In this document: piece by piece, positions 3,164 through 64,000 of the stretch
How positions within the stretch are numbered: position 1 is the stretch's first letter
Layout: each line of letters starts with the position of its first letter
Assembly: GCF_000348985.1 (NCBI RefSeq)
Contig: NC_035929.1
Span: 248,001-312,000, forward strand
Length of the DNA: 64,000 nucleotides
Source: Huiozyma naganishii CBS 8797
Lineage: Eukaryota > Ascomycota > Saccharomycetes > Saccharomycetales > Saccharomycetaceae
Direction of reading: 5' to 3'
Notes under the pieces: generated by a model
The model's database searches: none
The model's input: only the letters and a program-made list of their open reading frames with translations
Told to the model about the DNA's origin: nothing
Translations under genes and position numbers: made by a program

Positions 3164-3745
3164 CTACCCTCTGGAGGACTGCTCTTGCTTCACCTCTACT
3201 CGTTTCGTGTGCAGGCTTGGTATGTGGTGGCCAGATTCTCTCGAAAGGCCCGCTTTATACTGTACTTTGTTCGAATCGACATCGTACAACTCTCTGTTCG
3301 TCTTGTAGATCAGTTCCTTCAGGGATTTGTGCACCTCACGAGGTAGCGCTGTGGTCACGTAGGCGGTCCCACTAGTATCTGGTGATGATGTCTGTGGGGA
3401 GTCCTCCTCTTGTGAAAGGTATGGAGATTCTCTTCCGGTGACGCAAGGGCTCTCTGCGTCAGCGGCAGTGGCGCCTATACCATTGCTGGAATCAATTTCC
3501 TTGCTAACTTCCTCGTCGCACTCTGAAATAGTGGTGTCTACGGAACCATGAACGTCTGACTCACCACCACCGTACTGTGTCTGGTAGGGTGCTGAGTTCT
3601 CGCCGGCCGCAGAAGCCAGGTCTAGCAGATCCAGGCTGCCAAGTTTGAAGTTGATTTTCTCCAGTTCCACGGGGACAGATGTAACGGCCCGCCGAGAATA
3701 CCTCCTTACGGGCACCGTCACTGCCATGGTTCTACTTCTTCTCAT
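3164..3745 (-). CDS. HED1: Probable Hed1 (meiotic Rad51 regulator), called by position
   Basis: A 193-residue frame, starting ATG at 3745 (a second in-frame ATG lies at 3727). It has an Arg-rich N-terminus (PVRRYSRRAV), a Ser/Thr/Glu-rich disordered middle, and a more conserved-looking segment REVHKSLKELIYKTNRELYD. I do not recognise a domain. The assignment rests on position: it lies exactly where HED1 lies in S. cerevisiae, between DAD1 and RAD61, in the RAD61 orientation, with similar length (162 residues there). Hed1 restrains Rad51 during Dmc1-dependent meiotic recombination, and the Dmc1 accessory gene MEI5 is also present in this window. Alternative: a fast-evolving lineage-specific protein. 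Confidence 0.5.
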   Translation of the reverse strand: MRRSRTMAVTVPVRRYSRRAVTSVPVELEKINFKLGSLDLLDLASAAGENSAPYQTQYGGGESDVHGSVDTTISECDEEVSKEIDSSNGIGATAADAESPCVTGRESPYLSQEEDSPQTSSPDTSGTAYVTTALPREVHKSLKELIYKTNRELYDVDSNKVQYKAGLSRESGHHIPSLHTKRVEVKQEQSSRG

Positions 3746-5429: not shown

Positions 5430-7157
5430 TCAGAAGCAGAGTTTCCCTAGTGCGTATTCTACTTTGCTCGATACGCTTTTGTTGTCCTTTGCTATAATCT
5501 TTAGAGAGTGTAGTTCTTGTCGAAGCAACTCTTGAAGGGAAGGTGTTGTAGGGTGCACGGACAATGATTTAATGGACACAAGGCTGACTGTAAGCGCAAA
5601 TAATCCCACAAGAAACTTATCGGCCCCCTGTTTCTGTAGCCCGCTCAGTATTTGCGGGACTTTCGACCATTGCTCTATTTTTATCCCTATGTCACAATAA
5701 TCCAGGACGTTGAGACACAACGCCAATTGGCACACGTTGGTTTTTTGTTGTTCGATAGTAGATTCTCCGTCCAGCAGATCCGCGACTATCAAACTGAACG
5801 TCGGGAGAGCAATCTGATCGGCGAGCTGCGGGGTCATTTTAAACTCCTCTAGCAATCGATTCGTCAAGAGAATGAACCCCTGCGAGTAGTAAGGGTTGGC
5901 ATACCCTGTGGGGAGATTTTTGGTAAAAACTTCCAGAAGGAAATTGAACGTGCTGCTGTCGTTGATAGTGCAATCGAGAAGGATGTTTGATAAAGTGGAG
6001 TATGTTTTCACCAGGGTATCTTCCCTCTCTGGGTGCTCCGAAACAAAGACCAATATGTTCCTTTGTAGCTCGCTTCCCAGGGAGACCTCCTTATGGTAAT
6101 ACTGAAGTAAGTCCAATGCTAAATCCAAACTGGTGTCAAAATGTGATTTTGAGTAGAACTCGTTGTAGTTCATTAACACCATCTTGCTTGTCTTTTTCTT
6201 CTTATTCTTTGCTGGCCCGTTTGGTTTACTGTAATTGTTACTGAGCCGAGTGATGAGTTGGGAAAATGTGGGCCAAGATCGGATCTCGGTAGGCCTCAAT
6301 TTCAATTCACTTAAGAGCGTGCCCTTTAAAAAATCAAGCTCTGGCGAAGGCGCGTCCTCATTGAAACACAACCCCCATATATCGTTTGCGTGGTGTTTGG
6401 ACAGATACTCTTTGAACAAATTGTCCCTACGGATGGACAAATTTACATTTAAAAGTCTCTCCGCGTGGCTAATGCAGTCGGTGAGCAAGAACTCGAGATC
6501 CTGCCTGTATTTCAACGAATGACCCAGATTCCTGAGTTCATGAAAACTGTTGGCACCAAATGAGTTGTCCGGCTTTCCCTCGTCCTCACCCTCTTGTTCC
6601 GAACCATCCCCAAATTCGTCATCCCTCTTCACGAGTATCGTCCTAGTGTTATTGTACATTTTCTTATCATGTGCCTCCGGCGTACCTTTGTACTTCACCT
6701 CAGCGGTTGTTGCCGATTCAGTGGTACCTTCGAGAAACTTATCTAAAAAACTGGATTCTCCCTCTTGAAGCTGCTGTTCCCATTGCGACGCCGTCCTCCT
6801 CTGCACTCCATCTAGGAAGCTTTCCACGGACAATTCGAGCTCCTGCACACCACCATCATTGCGCGCGGCAAGAGTCTCCTCATCTGGCGAATCTTCCCCC
6901 ACGAGAGTCGCTGTTCGTTTCCTCCTCCTCCTCCCACGATTTACCCGCGTGTGCCGCCCGTTCCCAGGGTCTAAGAAACCAAACACGTCGTCATTCTCTC
7001 TCTGTGGCTTATCGCGGGATGGCGCCACATCGCGCTGTTCGCTCTCATCGTCGCTGCTGAATTGCGATTGCGATTGTTCCCCCGTCATATGCTGTCCACG
7101 GCCCCGCTGCACCTCATGAAACACCCGCGGTTTGCTTACTCTCCCATACACTTTCAT
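5430..7157 (-). CDS. RAD61: Cohesin release factor Rad61/Wpl1 (WAPL family)
   Basis: Yeast WAPL, which opens the Smc3-Scc1 gate of cohesin with Pds5 and limits acetylation-independent cohesion. The protein is 575 residues (647 in S. cerevisiae). The N-terminus MKVYGRVSKPR resembles the short basic start of Rad61, and is followed by a disordered Ser/Glu-rich region to about residue 200. The rest is helical and WAPL-like (for example NILLDCTINDSSTFNFLLEV and CLNVLDYCDIGIKIEQWSKV). Position agrees: the neighbours in this block are HED1 and PSF1, as in S. cerevisiae (YDR014W). It is divergent from PSF1 here, whereas the two are codirectional in S. cerevisiae. Confidence 0.88.
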   Translation of the reverse strand: MKVYGRVSKPRVFHEVQRGRGQHMTGEQSQSQFSSDDESEQRDVAPSRDKPQRENDDVFGFLDPGNGRHTRVNRGRRRRKRTATLVGEDSPDEETLAARNDGGVQELELSVESFLDGVQRRTASQWEQQLQEGESSFLDKFLEGTTESATTAEVKYKGTPEAHDKKMYNNTRTILVKRDDEFGDGSEQEGEDEGKPDNSFGANSFHELRNLGHSLKYRQDLEFLLTDCISHAERLLNVNLSIRRDNLFKEYLSKHHANDIWGLCFNEDAPSPELDFLKGTLLSELKLRPTEIRSWPTFSQLITRLSNNYSKPNGPAKNKKKKTSKMVLMNYNEFYSKSHFDTSLDLALDLLQYYHKEVSLGSELQRNILVFVSEHPEREDTLVKTYSTLSNILLDCTINDSSTFNFLLEVFTKNLPTGYANPYYSQGFILLTNRLLEEFKMTPQLADQIALPTFSLIVADLLDGESTIEQQKTNVCQLALCLNVLDYCDIGIKIEQWSKVPQILSGLQKQGADKFLVGLFALTVSLVSIKSLSVHPTTPSLQELLRQELHSLKIIAKDNKSVSSKVEYALGKLCF

Positions 7158-56439: not shown

Positions 56440-58099
56440 ATGTCTGGTTTTGACGATAGTACAGAAAATGTATGTTAATCTTATTGCTTTATGCGATTGT
56501 TTGTTTGTTTTTTCAGCTCTTAACTACAAATATTACATGCAAATCCATTTGTTCGCGAGGTGAAGTTGTCGTTATAGTAAACCATGTTTGGGGGAAATGT
56601 TTTTTAGAATGATGATGGCTCTTATTATGTTTTATCATTTAACACAGGAACATCCGTGCTCTTCCCAGAAAAAAAATAGCGGCGTTAATAGTGCGATAAC
56701 TGGAACTACCCCAATTCCACAAATTCAACTTCCCCTCAACTCTGTGCGATGCTGTGCTCGTTAATAATGTTAACTTGTTTTACTAATCTTACCTTTATTT
56801 TGGCCTGTTGCACACGCTGTGCCCACATTTGTTTAATAATAGAAGGATAATCAACGTAACAGATCGAGATCACCAGTACGTCGCCAACATGACGCGGCAG
56901 GTGATTATAGTGAACAAAGAGACTATCGCGAATTCCGTCAAAGAAACGACTATCGAGACAACGGGACGTACGAAAGAAGAAATGACGGTTACGGCCGAAA
57001 CAGGGGTCCACGTCCCAACACCACCGATGGTGGATTTCGCGGAGGCCGAGGGCGTTACGGCAACAGATATGATGATGAATACCAAGGAGGGGGTAGGTTT
57101 GATTCGGCAGCATCTGAAAGGGCACCCAGGAGTAGGTATAACCATGCTAAAGGTGATTACGGTCCTGTGTTGGCCCGGGAGCTAGACAGCACTTACGAAG
57201 AAAAGGTAAATAGAAACTATAGCAAGAGCGTCTTCGTTGGGAATCTCACTTACGAATCTACGCCGGAGGATCTCAGGGATTTTTTCTCACAAGTAGGGGA
57301 TGTTGTCAGAGCAGATATTATCACCTCACGGGGTCATCACAGGGGCATGGGTACTGTAGAATTTACAAATTCTGAAGATGTCGATGAGGCAATCCGTCAA
57401 TTTGACGGTTCGCTATTTATGGAACGTCCCATATTTGTAAGACAAGATAACCCACCCCCAGATTCAGGGCGTAGCAGAGCACCTCCACAAAGAGAGGACA
57501 GAAAGCAACGAGCGTTGAATGATAAGCCCGTCTATCAGGTTACAGTGAAAAATTTACCTCATTCGATAAACTGGCAGGCTTTGAAAGATATGTTCAAAGA
57601 GTGTGGACGAGTACTCAGGGCCGATGTTGAAAAAAACAGTGAGAGATATTCAAATGGGTCAGGGAAAGTCACATTCAGTAATTATGAGGACATGAAACGG
57701 TCGCTTGACAAATACAACGGCTTCAGAATCGAGGGGAACGTTTTGGAGGTGTCTGAGGTAGGGAAGACCTCGGCGAACAGCACGCCAACTGCTGAAAAGG
57801 TCGAACCAGTTGACAAATTCCCGGAAGGGTTTGTCGCTGGAGGAGAGCGGAATAATTACATTTTCTGTAGTAACCTTCCCGCCCCCACTACAAAGGGTGA
57901 TTTATATGACTTGTTTGAAATTATTGGGAAGGTAAACAGAGCAGAATTGCTATATGATGCGGACAAGAACCCAACAGGCGTGGCAATCATTGAATATCAA
58001 AGCATTGACGATGCAGATGTTTGCATTGAAAGATTAGACAAGTACACCTATGGTGGTTGCGATCTTGAAATATCATATGCCAAGAAAGCAGACTCTTGA
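56440..58099 (+). CDS. HRB1: SR-like mRNA-binding protein Hrb1/Gbp2 (two exons)
   Basis: Shuttling SR-like protein that accompanies mRNA during export and quality control. Exon 1 (56440-56469, ten codons) is joined to exon 2 (56843-58099) in phase 0, giving 428 residues. Exon 2 opens with an RS/RGG-type tail (RNRSRSPVRR), then YGPVLARELDSTYEEKVNRN. RRM1 follows (KSVFVGNLTYESTPEDL, RGHHRGMGTVEF), then RRM2 (VTVKNLPHSINWQALKDMF) and RRM3 (IFCSNLPAPTTKGDLYDLF). S. cerevisiae HRB1 also has an intron near its 5' end. The symbol rests on neighbour PET8 (YNL003C); the paralogue GBP2 is the alternative. Confidence 0.92.
56470..56842 (+). other. Spliceosomal intron of HRB1
   Basis: 373-bp intron with donor GTATGT at 56470, a branch-point-like TACTAAT at 56781-56787, and acceptor TAG ending at 56842. 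The branch point departs from TACTAAC in its last base. Reading frames on both sides agree in phase. Confidence 0.85.
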
Positions 58100-58376
58100 T
58101 GTATAGATACGTATGAATATATGTACCCTTATGTATCCACCATCATCATCCCCCTATATATCTCAGATATATCTATATGCATGTATAGTAATTTTTTTAC
58201 CTACTCAAAGGGATCATGGGTACCTGGCAAGGAATTTATCTGGTCCCCCAGCTACAAGGTATTCCTAGTACTTCATTGCTCAAGACAAAGGCCGGAGAGT
58301 TTCGCGGATCCAAGGAATATTGCGGGGAGAGATTGATAATAAAAAAAAAATAGGAATAAAAAAACCAGCCCCAAAA

Positions 58377-58951
58377 ATGCCGATATTTAATAAACTCAAG
58401 AGGATTTACTCGGCTAGAGGTGGCATCTCGCTGATCGCAAGCGGGTTACATAGAGGGAAATCGCTGAACAACTCTCTCCAAATGCTTAGCATCTTTCATC
58501 TGAAACTAGCCTTTTGGCTGGCCACAGTGCTCGGAGTCGGATATTTTGTGTACATCAAAAGAGATCAATTAGGTATGCTTTCATCTCATCTGTTTTAGGA
58601 CTTGCTCCCTTTTTATTTTATACTAACAAACTTTCAGCCTTTGAATGTCGAGAGATCAAAACGAGGATAGGTAAGCTGTTCGGGCGTAGAATTGCTTTAA
58701 ACGATTCGTTCGCAGAAGATGTAGAAAGTGGGTTTCATTCACAGAACTTTGATATTCGTTCTGAGAACGGTGAAGATTCAAGGTCGGGCCTAGATAACGC
58801 AGCCAAGGCCGAGATTAGACGCATAATGAATAATGAAAATCTAACATTTGACAAGGCGAGATTGCGATACACAGAGCGCCAGTTTGGTAAAAATTTGATT
58901 GCACCCGACGGAACACCATTAGACCCCAAAGCGGTCACATTTTCAAAGTAG
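58377..58951 (+). CDS. Small membrane protein, UPF0357/DUF2015-like, two exons
   Basis: Exon 1 58377-58572 and exon 2 58638-58951, joined within a codon, give 169 residues. One membrane segment near residues 42-60 (FWLATVLGVGYFVYIK). The C-terminal motif contains LTFDKARLRYTERQFGKN, then IAPDGTPLDPKAVTF, which I associate with the fungal UPF0357/DUF2015 family (S. cerevisiae YCL012C, also intron-containing); this is from memory and tentative. Function unknown. It sits between HRB1 and MRP7, which are direct neighbours in S. cerevisiae, so it or they have moved. Convergent with MRP7. Confidence 0.75.
58573..58637 (+). other. Spliceosomal intron of the UPF0357-like gene
   Basis: 65-bp intron: donor GTATGC at 58573, perfect branch point TACTAAC at 58621-58627, acceptor CAG ending at 58637 only 10 bases later. 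Joining the flanks restores one frame through GCC across the junction. Confidence 0.9.
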
Positions 58952-59079
58952 AAGACAGTCCTTTCATTCAGGATCCACAATCTCATGGTTTAATCGAGGT
59001 ATTCTGTGCCGAGGGGGCGGTAGGAAGTGGTGGTATATATAAATTACTTTATGTACAGGAATATATATGCGGATAATAA

Positions 59080-60171
59080 TCACAGTCTGCTAAGGAAAGC
59101 TTTAGGTGTTCTATGAATGATGTCGATTTTCTGAGTGCTGTAGTTGAACCGTTTGATGGCAACGGTTTTTTTACCCTTTTGTTCTATAACAGAGTCTGGG
59201 GTCTCTGGAAAGATTGGTTTTAAAAACATTCTTCTGAAACGGACCTCTTCTGCCAAAGTTAGGTATTGGTCGGCATTTTCAAACAGTTTAAACAGTTCCT
59301 TGCAGTCCTTTTCGTCCAACAATGTCTTAGACTTCTCCTTCAATTTTTGAAGTAATTGACTCCGTAACTCTGCCCTACGTTCTTCTGAAATGAATCCACA
59401 CAATTTATTTTTGTTGGTAAATGAGAATGTTTTGTCTACATTTTCACACACCTCCTTGATATCGTTCAGTTTACCCTCGGGTACCTTGCTGTTTGGTTCT
59501 TGAAGTTGGGCATTAATGTCTAAACAATGTCTAGCATAAAATTGGGCATCCTTTATAGCAAACCCATTACGAATACATCTCTTTAACCGAACTAGATAGC
59601 TCGATGCAATCTCTTCCTGGTGAGCGGGCAGATCCATCTTTTCTTGGACAAGTTTCTTATAATCCTCCTTCAGTTCTTTTCTCTTGAGTTCACGCTGTTG
59701 TTGAGCAGCAAGAATAGAGTCTTTCGATAAAAATGTTTTCCGTGGGAGCGATTGTTCCTCCTTTTCCGCTGCCCTTCTGTTATCCAATAATGTGTGCCCA
59801 AAACGTCTCGGAAGTGGATCAAAATGAGGTGTGGGCAGCTTCGCTTCCTTCCCTAAAGCAATACCAATGAACTTCTTCTGTGGGTGAAATGGATTCAAAT
59901 AATACCTTACAAAACCAGGTTCTAACGCAAAGATTGTATGGTCTTTACCAATACCCACATGCTCACCAGGGTAGAACTTTGTACCACGTTGCCGCATCAG
60001 GATTTCCCCCGCATTAACTTGTTGCCCTTCGTACTTCTTGGGACCTAGTCTTCTACCAGCAGAGTCCTTCATAGAAGTCCTAGAACCGGCAGCCCTTTTT
60101 GTAGCAAACCGAACCTGAGTAATAAGAACACCCTTGTGTTTCCCTACGAAACTAGCACAACTGCTCAACAT
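59080..60171 (-). CDS. MRP7: Mitochondrial large-subunit ribosomal protein Mrp7 (bL27m)
   Basis: Mitochondrial bL27. After a short targeting region (about 1-27), the bL27 core is clear: [40 protein letters not shown], and [14 protein letters not shown] (about 25-95). The long helical C-terminal extension (about 110-363) is yeast-specific. Length is 363 residues (371 in S. cerevisiae, YNL005C). ATG at 60171. Confidence 0.96.
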
Positions 60172-60742
60172 TGTATAGGTTCTCCTACTTCAACTGGATG
60201 CTCTTTCAAAATTGGAATACACTATATCTTATGGTTGTATCTCACTTCCGTTTGCCTCGAAGCAACGATGTGTACGGCTAAGTGGTGAAGTGTGGTAAAG
60301 TACGAGTTTCGAGGATTTAATCACAACATCAAAATATTAAAAAAATCTTTGAGAAAAAAAGAAGACTTGAAGATGCTTCGCGGTTTTGCTTTTTTTGGTG
60401 AAATCAAGCACAAGCCAATTGTTATGACTCTCAGAGTAATTGGTAGAGCTTATGAACCCCTGTAAACTACGCGTGTATAACTATGAAAAGATCTTTCAGC
60501 AAGTTGTTAAGTCGAGATTCCCGCAGGTTTTTCTGCACTATATGGCAGACAGGTTGAATAGATGAATATGACATAACCGTTTCCTCAGTATGTCAATGAG
60601 ATAAAACTGACTTGCTGTACCGTCCATGTTCCTGATTATCACTTGGTTTTGTTTAGTATTGAGCGATTGTGAGAAGGAAAAAAAGCTTTGGTTATCGACT
60701 TTTAAGTTATTCCTTATAATTTACCTAAACAACCCAATAAAG
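60172..60742. other. Intergenic between MRP7 and the left LTR repeat
   Basis: About 570 bp, AT-rich; contains the MRP7 promoter. No gene recognised. The five bases just before the repeat are TAAAG (60738-60742). Confidence 0.5.
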
Positions 60743-61061
60743 TGTCAAATCAGAGATATATTTCTCTTGTCTCCACTGATGCAAAAACCTATTTCTTAGA
60801 GACTGCTATATAAGAAACGGTTTTATGCAAAGGGTTGTTGTCGAGGTAATCTTCTTGCAGGTTTACACAACACGCTATGTACCTTTAATAGAACTGAGCT
60901 TGCAAGTAACGGCTGCAGGGACTCTACTGGTTCCTACATCAGCAGCCGGTTGGGACTGTTGGGTTGTTCCAACCCAATAGGCATATCTGATGCTTCATAG
61001 AGTGACGTATCCGTCACTAATACATCAGATATTCCCACAGAAGGACATCTAGAATTCAACA
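60743..61061. mobile_element. LTR-like repeat R1 (left copy)
   Basis: Begins TGTCAAATCAG and ends AATTCAACA, with canonical TG...CA ends. It aligns along its length, in direct orientation, with 63718-64000. Shared blocks include TTTACACAAC, ACGGCTGCAGGGAC, CTACTGGTT and CAGAAGGAC. Right flank is AGTGC (61062-61066). The copies differ by many substitutions and small indels, so they are old or were recombined from different parents. Confidence 0.8.
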
Positions 61062-61270
61062 AGTGCAGCTGCAACCGCAGCTGGAGCAGTTGTCACCACA
61101 ATTTGTTGAGGAGCAGTCACAGTTTGCGTAGTTGCCTCTTTGCTCTGCATGTACTCCTGGACCGCCTTCTGAAATATTGCCAGTAGTGCTGGATCCACAG
61201 GTGTGTCCGTAGGAGTAGCAGTATCAACGGGGTTATTTTCGTATACGGGCTGTGTATCGTTGCCCGTTTT
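61062..61270 (-). pseudogene. Retrotransposon gag fragment, upstream (N-terminal) part
   Basis: Minus-strand frame open from after a TAA at 61271-61273 into the R1 repeat. It encodes a Thr/Pro/Val/Ala-rich stretch with a helical segment LLAIFQKAVQEYMQSKE, typical of a yeast Ty Gag N-terminal region. No start codon remains. Further right (about 61298-61360) the sequence resembles the interior of the LTR-like repeats, perhaps this element's own LTR. Its reading frame continues into the fragment at 62967-63717 if the repeat and one AGTGC copy are disregarded. Confidence 0.6.
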
Positions 61271-61415
61271 TTACAGACGTTGACTCTCCTTCAAAAAGAA
61301 TTGATACAAAAGGATATCGTTGAAATAATTCTCTTGCAGCTCTGCATATTACTTTTATCAAGCTTCCACTAAATAGCAACTTGCATTCATGAATTGCATA
61401 TAGACAAACAGGGTC

Positions 61416-62354
61416 ATGTCTCAGCGTTTATTCCTCACGTTGGTAAATATTATTGCCGCAGCTGCGTTTGATACGGCTGCCAATTTGGAGGCCCCAGTAG
61501 AATTTGGACTTATTGATATTGGGAACGTCAGCTTCAGTGCAGATCCCCGATTCACCTCAGGACACTTGACTACGGGTGCGCCGTTAGTAGTGTACCAAGG
61601 TAAAACAGATATCAATACGACACTGTTACCGTACCCAGGGTCTGACTACCAGCCAGATTTGGAGGGCATACAGGCCTTTGTTGATAAGATGAACTCACCA
61701 CACTACGACGGCTTAGCAACACGTGACTACGATTTGGAAGGTGCCCAGTCAGTTACTGTCGCTCAAGTGTTAGACTTGTTGGCCATGGGACGGACAGACC
61801 GTGACAACCTTGGGTACAAACGCGATGACTGTAATAATGGGTACTGGCATAACTTTACCAATAAGTTATTTAGAGCATACAACAGAATAGACGAGAAACT
61901 TGCTTCGAACGTACTACAATTTACATGGTCTTTGGCTACCTCGGTCCTAGGTGAGATGTCTGGTTACATACAGCTGGGTCAACAGTCAGCTGCCAATACC
62001 AAGGCAGCGTCACAACCGCATCAATGTGCAGGGCGCTCTGACTGGCTAAACTATGATGCGTCTGATGGAAAGTGCTATACGTACTGGGTGGGGGTAGCGC
62101 CTTGGACAACCGGTCCGAACTGTGATACTACTGCTCGTGAAGATTTGATGGCATCAGCTTTTGCGTTCGCTTACGAGACTTTGAACCAGGTCAAAGGTAC
62201 GTCCATGTGTGTATCAATGACCCACGATGGTACTTGGCATGCTGATGTACGGATTGCACGGTGGGAGGAAGCTCAATTTTGTGGTATTAACTTATGGAGT
62301 ATTCCGTGTGACGACGCAAATTTTGTTTATGGACCTGGGCATGATGAGTTGTAA
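61416..62354 (+). CDS. Secreted cysteine-containing protein ending in HDEL (killer-toxin-like layout, unproven)
   Basis: A 312-residue intact frame that I do not recognise by sequence. Signal peptide at about 1-18 (hydrophobic LFLTLVNIIAAAAF). Three N-glycosylation sequons (N37, N67, N146). One dibasic KR at 135-136 that Kex2 could cut. Seven cysteines all follow it (139, 204, 220, 236, 265, 289, 298). The chain ends in HDEL, the yeast ER-retrieval signal. Two readings fit: an ER-resident glycoprotein, or a secreted toxin precursor, since the K28 killer toxin family uses a C-terminal HDEL for retrograde entry. It is flanked by retrotransposon pieces and LTR-like repeats. A four-codon upstream ORF (61389) precedes the ATG. 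No immunity gene is evident. Confidence 0.75.
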   Translation: MSQRLFLTLVNIIAAAAFDTAANLEAPVEFGLIDIGNVSFSADPRFTSGHLTTGAPLVVYQGKTDINTTLLPYPGSDYQPDLEGIQAFVDKMNSPHYDGLATRDYDLEGAQSVTVAQVLDLLAMGRTDRDNLGYKRDDCNNGYWHNFTNKLFRAYNRIDEKLASNVLQFTWSLATSVLGEMSGYIQLGQQSAANTKAASQPHQCAGRSDWLNYDASDGKCYTYWVGVAPWTTGPNCDTTAREDLMASAFAFAYETLNQVKGTSMCVSMTHDGTWHADVRIARWEEAQFCGINLWSIPCDDANFVYGPGHDEL

Positions 62355-62816
62355 GCGTTGTAAGCAGATTTGCACCCCCCATACAAATATATAAGTAGAA
62401 GGGAGTTGTGTGTCGTGACTGAGAGCTGTGTAAGTTCGTGGTCAAGAACTGTGTGAGTTCTTGTTACACACATGTAACACGGAACTTTCACAGTTCCAGT
62501 CACGAGACATCGCTCTCAATCACAACCTCTCACAGTTCTCAGTCACGAGACGAACAGCTCTCATACAAGACGCACATCTCTCACTTACGAGATTCAACAC
62601 AAGCCTTCATTCACGAAGCATCCCACAACAACATGCTACAACGCATGAAACACGTAGCAAGATGTTACAACACATGAAACACGTAACAACATGCAACATG
62701 CAAGCTACGTATCTATTACCCAGGGACAGACCCAAGCTAATGCGGTCTGACCCGCTTCACCAATTATTATATAAAGGCCACGGATTCCAGCCTTTGGAAT
62801 CCTCGGCTCACTTCCT
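62355..62816. other. Spacer with inverted and direct repeats
   Basis: About 460 bp after the HDEL gene. CGTGACTGAGAGCTGTG (about 62414-62430) pairs imperfectly with CACAGTTCTCAGTCACG (about 62529-62545). The CAGTCACGAGAC...GCTCTCA unit occurs twice, and ATGAAACACGTA is repeated near 62644 and 62674. No gene recognised on either strand. Confidence 0.55.
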
Positions 62817-62966
62817 TTATATATCTTCTCTTCCTCTATATTCCTTATATAAGAGTTCAACAGTAATCAAATTGTCCGGCAGAGGCCCTATGATGGCGTA
62901 ATCACGATTTTCTTCAATCATAGCATGAGTGCCTAATGTCGGAATAAGGGCGCTGTGGACCTCATC
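62817..62966 (-). pseudogene. Start of a retrotransposon pol-like frame, in frame after the gag stop
   Basis: Directly after the gag TAG (62967-62969) the same frame continues for 49 codons to TAA at 62817-62819, with coding-like content (for example THAMIEENRDYAIIGPLPDN). It looks like the beginning of a Ty pol/protease region. The remainder of pol is missing; the spacer and the HDEL gene lie there instead. Confidence 0.5.
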
Positions 62967-63717
62967 CTATTGTGGACCACTGGATCGGCTGGACTTGTTT
63001 TGGTCATTTCCGTTGGGGTTCTTGTTGTAAACCTTGTTCCCGGTTTTACCACTGTCCGAGAACTTGTCGTAATTTTTCCATTTGTTGGAAGACTGCGCAT
63101 CGCGTTTGCGATGTTTCCCTCTTGGGGTGTCATCGTCCTGTGACCGATTGCGTTTTCCGGTCCACTCCTTTTCGTCGTTCTTCCATGATGACATCATTTC
63201 AACAATTAGCTGACGAAATCCCAGCTCAGCTTTGTTGCGATAGTCCTTTTGGTACGACGTTGGGTGTAATCCAAGGATAAGATATCTCGCCAATTCTTCG
63301 GGCTTCAGCGTCTTGAGGAACGAATCATACACGTCCATAAACTTTTTCAGATCCTTTGAGGACTTAATGGGCTTGCGGACGACGTTCGCGATTTCTCTAA
63401 TGAGATCTACCTGATAGTCGTACGCCACTGCGACACTTTTGATAATGTCGTCAGTGGTTAGTGCGTGCTTCTCTTCCGTAGTCATGTTCTTTATGAACTG
63501 ATGGAACATTTTCAACGCGCTCCCTCGAAAGGAGTTCATTGCCATGGTATAAGGAGACAATTCTAGCACTTTTGCGGGTCCATTAGCTATATCCAGAAAT
63601 GCTGACTTCCATTGACCAAAATCCAATCCTTTTTCTGGTTCTCCGCTGAAGGTGAACCCTTCACGCAAAAATTGTTAGTCTCTCCCTCGCAGTTACGATA
63701 GACGACTCCGCTAGTGC
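62967..63717 (-). pseudogene. Retrotransposon gag fragment, main (C-terminal) part
   Basis: Minus-strand frame (best part 62967-63668) encoding a Gag-like protein. FSGEPEKGLDFGQWKSAF resembles the start of a capsid domain, and it is followed by helical stretches with KPEELARYLILGL. The tail is basic and rich in Lys/Arg/Ser/Asn, like yeast Ty Gag nucleocapsid regions. It has no ATG at the start. Upstream, a one-base frame change in a five-T run (63667-63671) separates it from an open stretch that reaches the right LTR-like repeat at 63717. It ends in TAG. Ty1/copia versus Ty3/gypsy is not resolved. Confidence 0.7.
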
Positions 63718-64000
63718 TGTTGAGATGGGAAATCAGAATATGATCATCTCATACGGACTGTTCTATAAGAAAAGTTTTCATGCAAAGAGCTATTGTCGAG
63801 ATAAACTTCCTATAGCTTTACACAACACTTTATGTAGACTTGAGCCCGCAAGTGACGGCTGCAGGGACCCTACTGGTTTCCACATCTGCAGCCAGTTGGG
63901 GCCGTTGGGCTGTTACAACCCCACAGCCATATATGTCGATCGATTGAGTGATTCTACCATTACTAGCTGTCTCCCACAGAAGGACTTCTAGAATTTAACA
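63718..64000. mobile_element. LTR-like repeat R2 (right copy, reaching the window edge)
   Basis: Begins TGTTGAGATGGG and ends AATTTAACA at the last base of the window; a partner of R1 in direct orientation. Left flank is AGTGC (63713-63717). If sense follows the neighbouring gag, the LTR reads on the minus strand. TATAAG-like sequences occur in both copies on the plus strand, so promoter direction is uncertain. Confidence 0.78.

Follow-up and report, generated by a model that had tools for sequence, protein, structure and literature searches.

The window analysed here is a stretch of 64,000 nucleotides from the genome of Huiozyma (Kazachstania) naganishii CBS 8797 (C8:248001-312000), and at its right end lies a retrotransposon-derived locus in which two long terminal repeats (LTRs), R1 and R2, enclose two pieces of a gag gene, gagN and gagC. 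The genome searched comprised 10,845,821 bp in 13 contigs, and contig sequence past the window end was also used (L009-L011, where L009:1-6000 corresponds to window positions 58001-64000); all that follows concerns one locus in one assembly. From left to right the order is R1, AGTGC, gagN on the minus strand, a 1.6-kb insert named X, gagC on the minus strand, AGTGC and R2:

60735..61061 (start extrapolated), plus strand: R1, LTR of the first subfamily (profile match 60741-61061, profile positions 7-300, E 4.5e-91)
61062..61066, no strand: AGTGC, half of a 5-bp target duplication
61062..61267, minus strand: gagN, the gag fragment's N-terminal part (206 bp, 100% identical to C8:319155-319360)
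61268..62877, no strand: X, the insert between the gag ends, with an LTR remnant, a secreted-protein gene and an LTR of a second family
62878..63717, minus strand: gagC, the fragment's C-terminal part and what follows as far as the protease region (840 bp aligned, 99.64% identical to C8:318321-319159)
63713..63717, no strand: AGTGC, the other half of the target duplication
63718..64000, plus strand: R2, an LTR of the second subfamily, complete, its tail resembling that of the first subfamily (profile positions 1-300, E 1.4e-88)

A solo LTR nested in the ordinary way has a target copy on each of its sides; here, the two copies face inward between two LTRs. This inside-out arrangement of gag around an LTR insertion is real. 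The original prediction for this DNA had already placed the right edge of R1 at 61061, R2 at 63718-64000 and an AGTGC directly after R1 and directly before R2, and our boundaries agree with these, R2 being complete in terms of its family profile. Its start of R1 at 60743 was wrong, as profile position 7 falls on window position 60741 and the edge extrapolated from the profile alignment lies near 60735. Beyond position 64000, it had expected either a repeat of TAAAG (60738-60742) or, if the locus were a tandem array, AGTGC and then gagN again. Both are absent and CATAAGTC (CATAA...) is found there instead, which matches neither, and thus these flank predictions, taken literally, are refuted by their own wording. 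However, the TAAAG test was ill-posed because the left edge of R1 had been misplaced: TAAAG lies inside R1, and we rejected it as a target duplication. A continuing tandem array was rejected as well, since CATAA rather than AGTGC and gag follows R2.

The gag pieces and their uninterrupted copy

A genome search with positions 61062-63717 revealed an uninterrupted gag copy on the same chromosome, about 7 kb away (C8:318321-319360; L010:2321-3360). Both window pieces are found in it in normal order, abutting and overlapping by exactly AGTGC, and its single AGTGC (C8:319155-319159) is located exactly at the point where the two pieces meet. We therefore rejected a chance match of the two AGTGC copies. 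The uninterrupted site that the original prediction proposed to look for thus exists, and its view of the two minus-strand pieces as parts of one gag was correct; the possibility that they derive from different families does not hold, as the same family is matched by both. In 840 + 206 aligned bases, the window pieces differ from the uninterrupted copy at three places, two of them substitutions and the third a 1-base indel.

In the more distant gag copies on C2 and C1, both parts likewise lie close together and in normal order, as judged from match coordinates. Because the uninterrupted C8 copy and the C1 and C2 copies all share this order, comparison of the copies indicates that it is the ancestral order, from which the window copy derives. 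When set against an uninterrupted donor, the window copy is circularly permuted, which is the pattern looked for in a duplication through a circular intermediate. The break in the gag reading frame that had been noticed earlier sits in a stretch identical in the uninterrupted copy; it thus predates the permutation, and the gag was already dead by then.

The uninterrupted copy runs on into an aspartyl protease (PF13650, 4e-6), and the C1 copy consists of a related gag-protease followed by an RVT_1 relic. Judged by this order of gag, aspartyl protease and RVT_1, which is that of Ty3/gypsy elements and was pieced together from the uninterrupted copy and its C1 relative, the gag is a Ty3/gypsy-like relic. 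All 6 RVT_1 places are on contigs other than C8. The gagC piece gave no Pfam match above the cut-off, and a protein search with it returned one match, which covers 82% of the query at 100% identity. A 63-bp inverted repeat with 87% identity (L010:1764-1826 and 3364-3426) also flanks the uninterrupted gag-protease relic, and the window's gagN copy ends 3 bp short of that repeat.

The LTR family and the tails of R1 and R2

LTRs of the R family are about 283-300 bp long. With R1 as the query at least 32 matches were found in the genome, and with R2 at least 30, some of them being pieces of one LTR; 20 of the 30 matches to the R2 query were used for the LTR alignment. R1 and R2 are not near-identical to each other, as they belong to two subfamilies and share 72-74% identity. 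Comparison of the R1 body with seven copies of each subfamily gave 79-83% identity for the first and 68-75% for the second, while the R2 body shows 75-91% identity to second-subfamily copies and 75-77% to first-subfamily ones. Among the genome matches listed there was no near-identical copy of either LTR, the best long match being 88% for R1 and 87% for R2.

At the gag junctions the LTRs carry the expected TG...CA termini, namely TGTTGAG at the left end of R2 and ...AACA at the right end of R1, the latter end being intact and bearing a second-subfamily-like tail. The left end of R1, away from gag, is badly decayed and has an insertion of about 28 bp near 60755-60782. In the R family, 7 of the 11 copies with intact ends are flanked by 5-bp sequences that match at 4 or 5 of 5 positions, compared to 3 of 110 cross-pairs, and all four of the 11 that belong to the second subfamily, R2 among them, match at just 1 or 2. 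The two sides of R1, and likewise those of R2, match at only 1 of 5 positions, whereas the left side of R2 and the right side of R1 match at all 5. A 5-bp duplication next to LTR termini, present as a single copy at the uninterrupted site, is what an insertion made by integrase leaves behind. Read from the two junctions and the uninterrupted copy, the AGTGC-marked insertion of an LTR in gag, as originally proposed, is thus demonstrated at the sequence level.

The LTRs and the gag had been taken for a single retrotransposon, but they are probably parts of different elements. The R profile has matches at 5 of 8 copia-type (RVT_2) loci, which correspond to 3 of 6 distinct regions, at 0 of 7 RVT_1 loci and at 0 of 3 gag-type loci, most of the loci screened being limited to about 1.5 kb of flank per side. 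No LTRs belonging to the gag relics themselves are seen. Hence, the R family is probably of the Ty1/copia type, judging by its neighbourhood within these short flanks, and the locus probably represents a nesting of two different elements, a copia-type LTR in a Ty3/gypsy-like gag.

As direct repeats from two different subfamilies, R1 and R2 call for at least one exchange. Within the last ~15 bp of the LTR there are two sites at which R1 has AC, a state seen in none of 9 copies of its own first subfamily and in 3 of 6 second-subfamily copies. R2 has TT at the same two sites, as do 9 of 9 first-subfamily copies and none of the 6 of its own subfamily. The nine first-subfamily copies are the seven full-length ones together with L067 and L069; the six others are L049, L050, L052, L055, L065 and L066, with L051, L053 and L054 omitted because they cannot be aligned at the right end. 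These tail states would result from a crossover in CCCACAGAAGGAC, a 13-bp block that both LTRs share at their right ends, so that an exchange of the R1 and R2 tails by LTR-LTR crossover has moderate support from the comparison.

Several other observations concern this family. A third R-family LTR, truncated and inverted, lies 535 bp to the right of R2 (L009:6536-6768, minus strand, equivalent to window positions 64536-64768). At C12:132308-132653 (L045:508-853), fragments from two LTRs of the family alternate, which suggests that one LTR entered the other. The R-family copies L052 and L063, although from different subfamilies, are 88% identical over the 150 bp to their right and may be 5' LTRs of related elements. 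A copia-type open frame of 1597 codons at C12:133101-138375 is flanked by 241-bp repeats that are 94.6% identical (L045:1301-1541 and 6335-6575) and inverted, where direct LTRs would be expected.

The insert X and the neighbouring genes

The insert between the two gag pieces, and the gene to the left of the locus, contain the following features:

61294..61355, plus strand: decayed R-family LTR remnant in X (nhmmer E 2.5e-7)
61416..62354, plus strand: 312-codon gene of the PF20521 family, ending in HDEL (PF20521 9.2e-11)
62473..62845, plus strand: LTR2, a truncated LTR of another family, right edge approximate
62846..62870, minus strand: 25-bp fold-back at the right end of the LTR2 family, just before the gagC junction
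59080..60171, minus strand: left neighbour gene of the mitochondrial ribosomal protein L27 type (Pfam PF18471 7.3e-89, PF01016 8e-32)

For the left part of X (61268-61589), searching the genome gave no further match at the DNA level. Elsewhere in the genome X matches only a diverged paralogue on C9 (74%) and relatives of LTR2. The paralogue of the PF20521 gene is KNAG_0I00330 (P0004; C9:45458-46333, 68%), whose record name begins with 'Secreted protein CSS'. It too ends in HDEL, as does a relative, P0005, while P0006 ends in HDELR. In a published account (PMC13211469), the HDELR tail is described as essential for retrotranslocation of the K28 killer toxin, and the Klus killer toxin is said to resemble CSS2. 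By this analogy, a toxin-like role of the gene in X may be considered, as a lead and not as a result. R-family remnants lie upstream of both PF20521 gene copies, in opposite orientations (window 61294-61355 and L079:1169-1237).

The fold-back at 62846-62870 is 96% identical to the reverse complement of a downstream part of the LTR2 family (best copy compared, L025). An inverted repeat with 45-nt arms at 62410-62454 and 62507-62551 (73% complementary) straddles the left edge of that family. The gene to the right of the locus is of the eRF1 type; the Saccharomyces cerevisiae names of the L27-type and eRF1-type neighbours are presumably MRP7 and DOM34.

Origin of the permuted order and its significance

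The permutation points to a circle or a tandem unit on grounds of topology, because the LTRs are direct, the duplication faces inward and the donor is uninterrupted. This was also the original prediction, which saw the flanks as permuted by a circle or tandem unit opened at the LTR; the order fits and the normal-order copy is nearby. The sequence of events that we favour would begin with an R-family LTR element, possibly of the second, R2-type subfamily, inserting in a copy of gag and duplicating AGTGC. The LTR-carrying gag fragment, corresponding to the stretch C8:318321-319360, would then have been joined at both ends to X, giving a closed circle, although the circle could have formed either before or after the insertion of the LTR into gag. 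Finally, as the tail exchange suggests, the LTR of the circle would have crossed over, near CCCACAGAAGGAC at its right end, with a resident first-subfamily LTR placed between the L27-type and eRF1-type genes, and the circle would have been opened at this point. R1 would thus consist of the resident body and the inserted tail, and R2 of the inserted body and the resident tail. That the locus is a recent, circularly permuted duplicate of a dead gag fragment, which entered a resident LTR by crossover as a free circle, is in our opinion an evenly balanced proposition, and entry of a free circle into a resident LTR is the most economical form of the circle-or-tandem reading. Somewhat more tentatively, the locus may be regarded as the fossil of an LTR-guided insertion, in which a composite circle with a secreted, possibly killer-toxin-like gene recombined into a resident LTR and so moved a host gene.

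Several points weigh against this scenario. A resident LTR would be expected to have its own target duplication on the outer flanks, but the left flank of R1 (CAACC) and the right flank of R2 (CATAA) match at only 2 of 5 positions by eye, although decay at the left end of R1 makes this comparison an unfair one. The consensus of the S. cerevisiae autonomously replicating sequence (ARS) has no match in the 2656-bp unit 61062-63717. Nor does the scenario account for the original home of X and the two junctions between X and gag. As for the crossover, the two tail sites were chosen after inspection of the alignment. At 57 diagnostic columns, in a count that includes L051, L053 and L054, the state of the opposite subfamily is found 13 times in R1 and 9 times in R2, and 4 columns are swapped in both LTRs (2 of 3 in the tail and 2 of 54 in the body), so mosaicism is not confined to the tail. 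Moreover, a crossover in 13 identical bp between LTRs that are only ~73% alike would be unusual for ordinary homologous recombination.

The same final order could also be reached with no free circle, by a chromosomal tandem duplication of the unit gagC-LTR-gagN-X, after which two LTR-LTR deletions would trim off the outer gag halves and put other sequence in place of the outer flanks. Such a route requires no duplication around a resident LTR, which is consistent with the mismatch of CAACC and CATAA, and LTR-LTR recombination that leaves solo LTRs is known in yeast, according to parts of PMC4751563. Nevertheless, it takes three events in place of one exchange, the tail of R2 would have to derive from yet another first-subfamily LTR, and no gag residue was seen between the L27-type gene and R1 or, by self-comparison, between R2 and the uninterrupted copy. 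We thus consider this route unlikely, though as the main rival it deserves serious attention. Replicative template switching, similar to microhomology-mediated break-induced replication, in which a repair fork jumps among the gag pieces and X without any circle, is favoured by the lack of evident homology at the two gag-X junctions, by the 25-bp fold-back beside the gagC junction and by the 63-bp inverted repeat at the uninterrupted copy. However, template jumps alone do not explain why the termini of both LTRs are exact and adjoin the same 5-bp duplication, and integration would be required anyway, which makes this explanation rather improbable.

An assembly artefact might be suspected because the two loci, as direct repeats of almost the same sequence, lie less than 10 kb apart, and their common 206- and 840-bp repeats could have been mis-joined. 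Yet by our reasoning the only linear path that uses every junction is R1-n-X-a-R2...a-n (n = 206, a = 840), which is the assembled order, while the alternative path splits off a circle with the eRF1-type gene. The two loci also differ at 3 bases, and the lack of a near-identical R1 or R2 among the matches listed speaks against such an error as well; we judge it very improbable. Autointegration of the complementary DNA of one retrotransposon into its own gag is described in PMC4751563 as yielding inverted 2-LTR circles or truncated 1-LTR circles. It would result in opposite orientation, or in one gag side per circle, whereas here the gag pieces lie on one strand and both target junctions are present, and its simple form was rejected for this reason. 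As X holds a host-type gene and the R-profile counts at gag-type and RVT_2 loci speak for different elements, any version of autointegration is barely credible.

The locus has several partial counterparts among known systems. A 17-kb region of Zygosaccharomyces bailii spread in wine yeasts by extrachromosomal circular DNA (eccDNA; PMC3053389), and there too the permuted order of the inserted segment is read as the trace of a circular intermediate in yeast. However, that region has several insertions, little or no similarity at breakpoints and a functional ARS, whereas the naganishii locus is one insertion, opened at an LTR and marked by a target duplication, in which the S. cerevisiae ARS consensus was not found. 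Ty eccDNA arises by LTR-LTR recombination, and entry of such circles into a genomic solo LTR is the authors' speculation (PMC4751563). In both cases the LTR would be the crossover point between circle and chromosome; the Ty circles, however, are mostly full-length, come from S. cerevisiae and enter only speculatively, whereas the naganishii unit is a composite of gag and a gene. The naganishii locus is a candidate fossil of the LTR-circle entry step. In human segmental duplications, for which an eccDNA route has been proposed (PMC7450558), the block order A-B/C-D is turned to B-A/D-C, likewise a permutation between donor and copy; microhomology and short indels are reported at the breakpoints there, whereas here LTR termini fix the point of opening. 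Nested insertions of LTR elements (for example PMC6911290) share with our locus an LTR within another element's gag and a short target duplication, but the naganishii flanks are permuted and do not lie on two sides of one LTR. Titles and abstract openings, with most subscription journals outside the scope, held no earlier report of this signature or of H. naganishii retrotransposons that we could find, and the species name appeared in none of the nested-LTR papers among the matches listed.

An inward-facing target duplication together with a nearby uninterrupted copy constitutes a signature that can be scanned for in any genome. Such scans could reveal how often LTR-bearing circles re-enter chromosomes, a route on which PMC4751563 speculates. 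As the unit carries a secreted-protein gene, the locus also bears on how genes of this kind spread. If our interpretation is true, a host gene was moved by a route so far only speculated for Ty circles, and the inward-facing duplication would be its signature.

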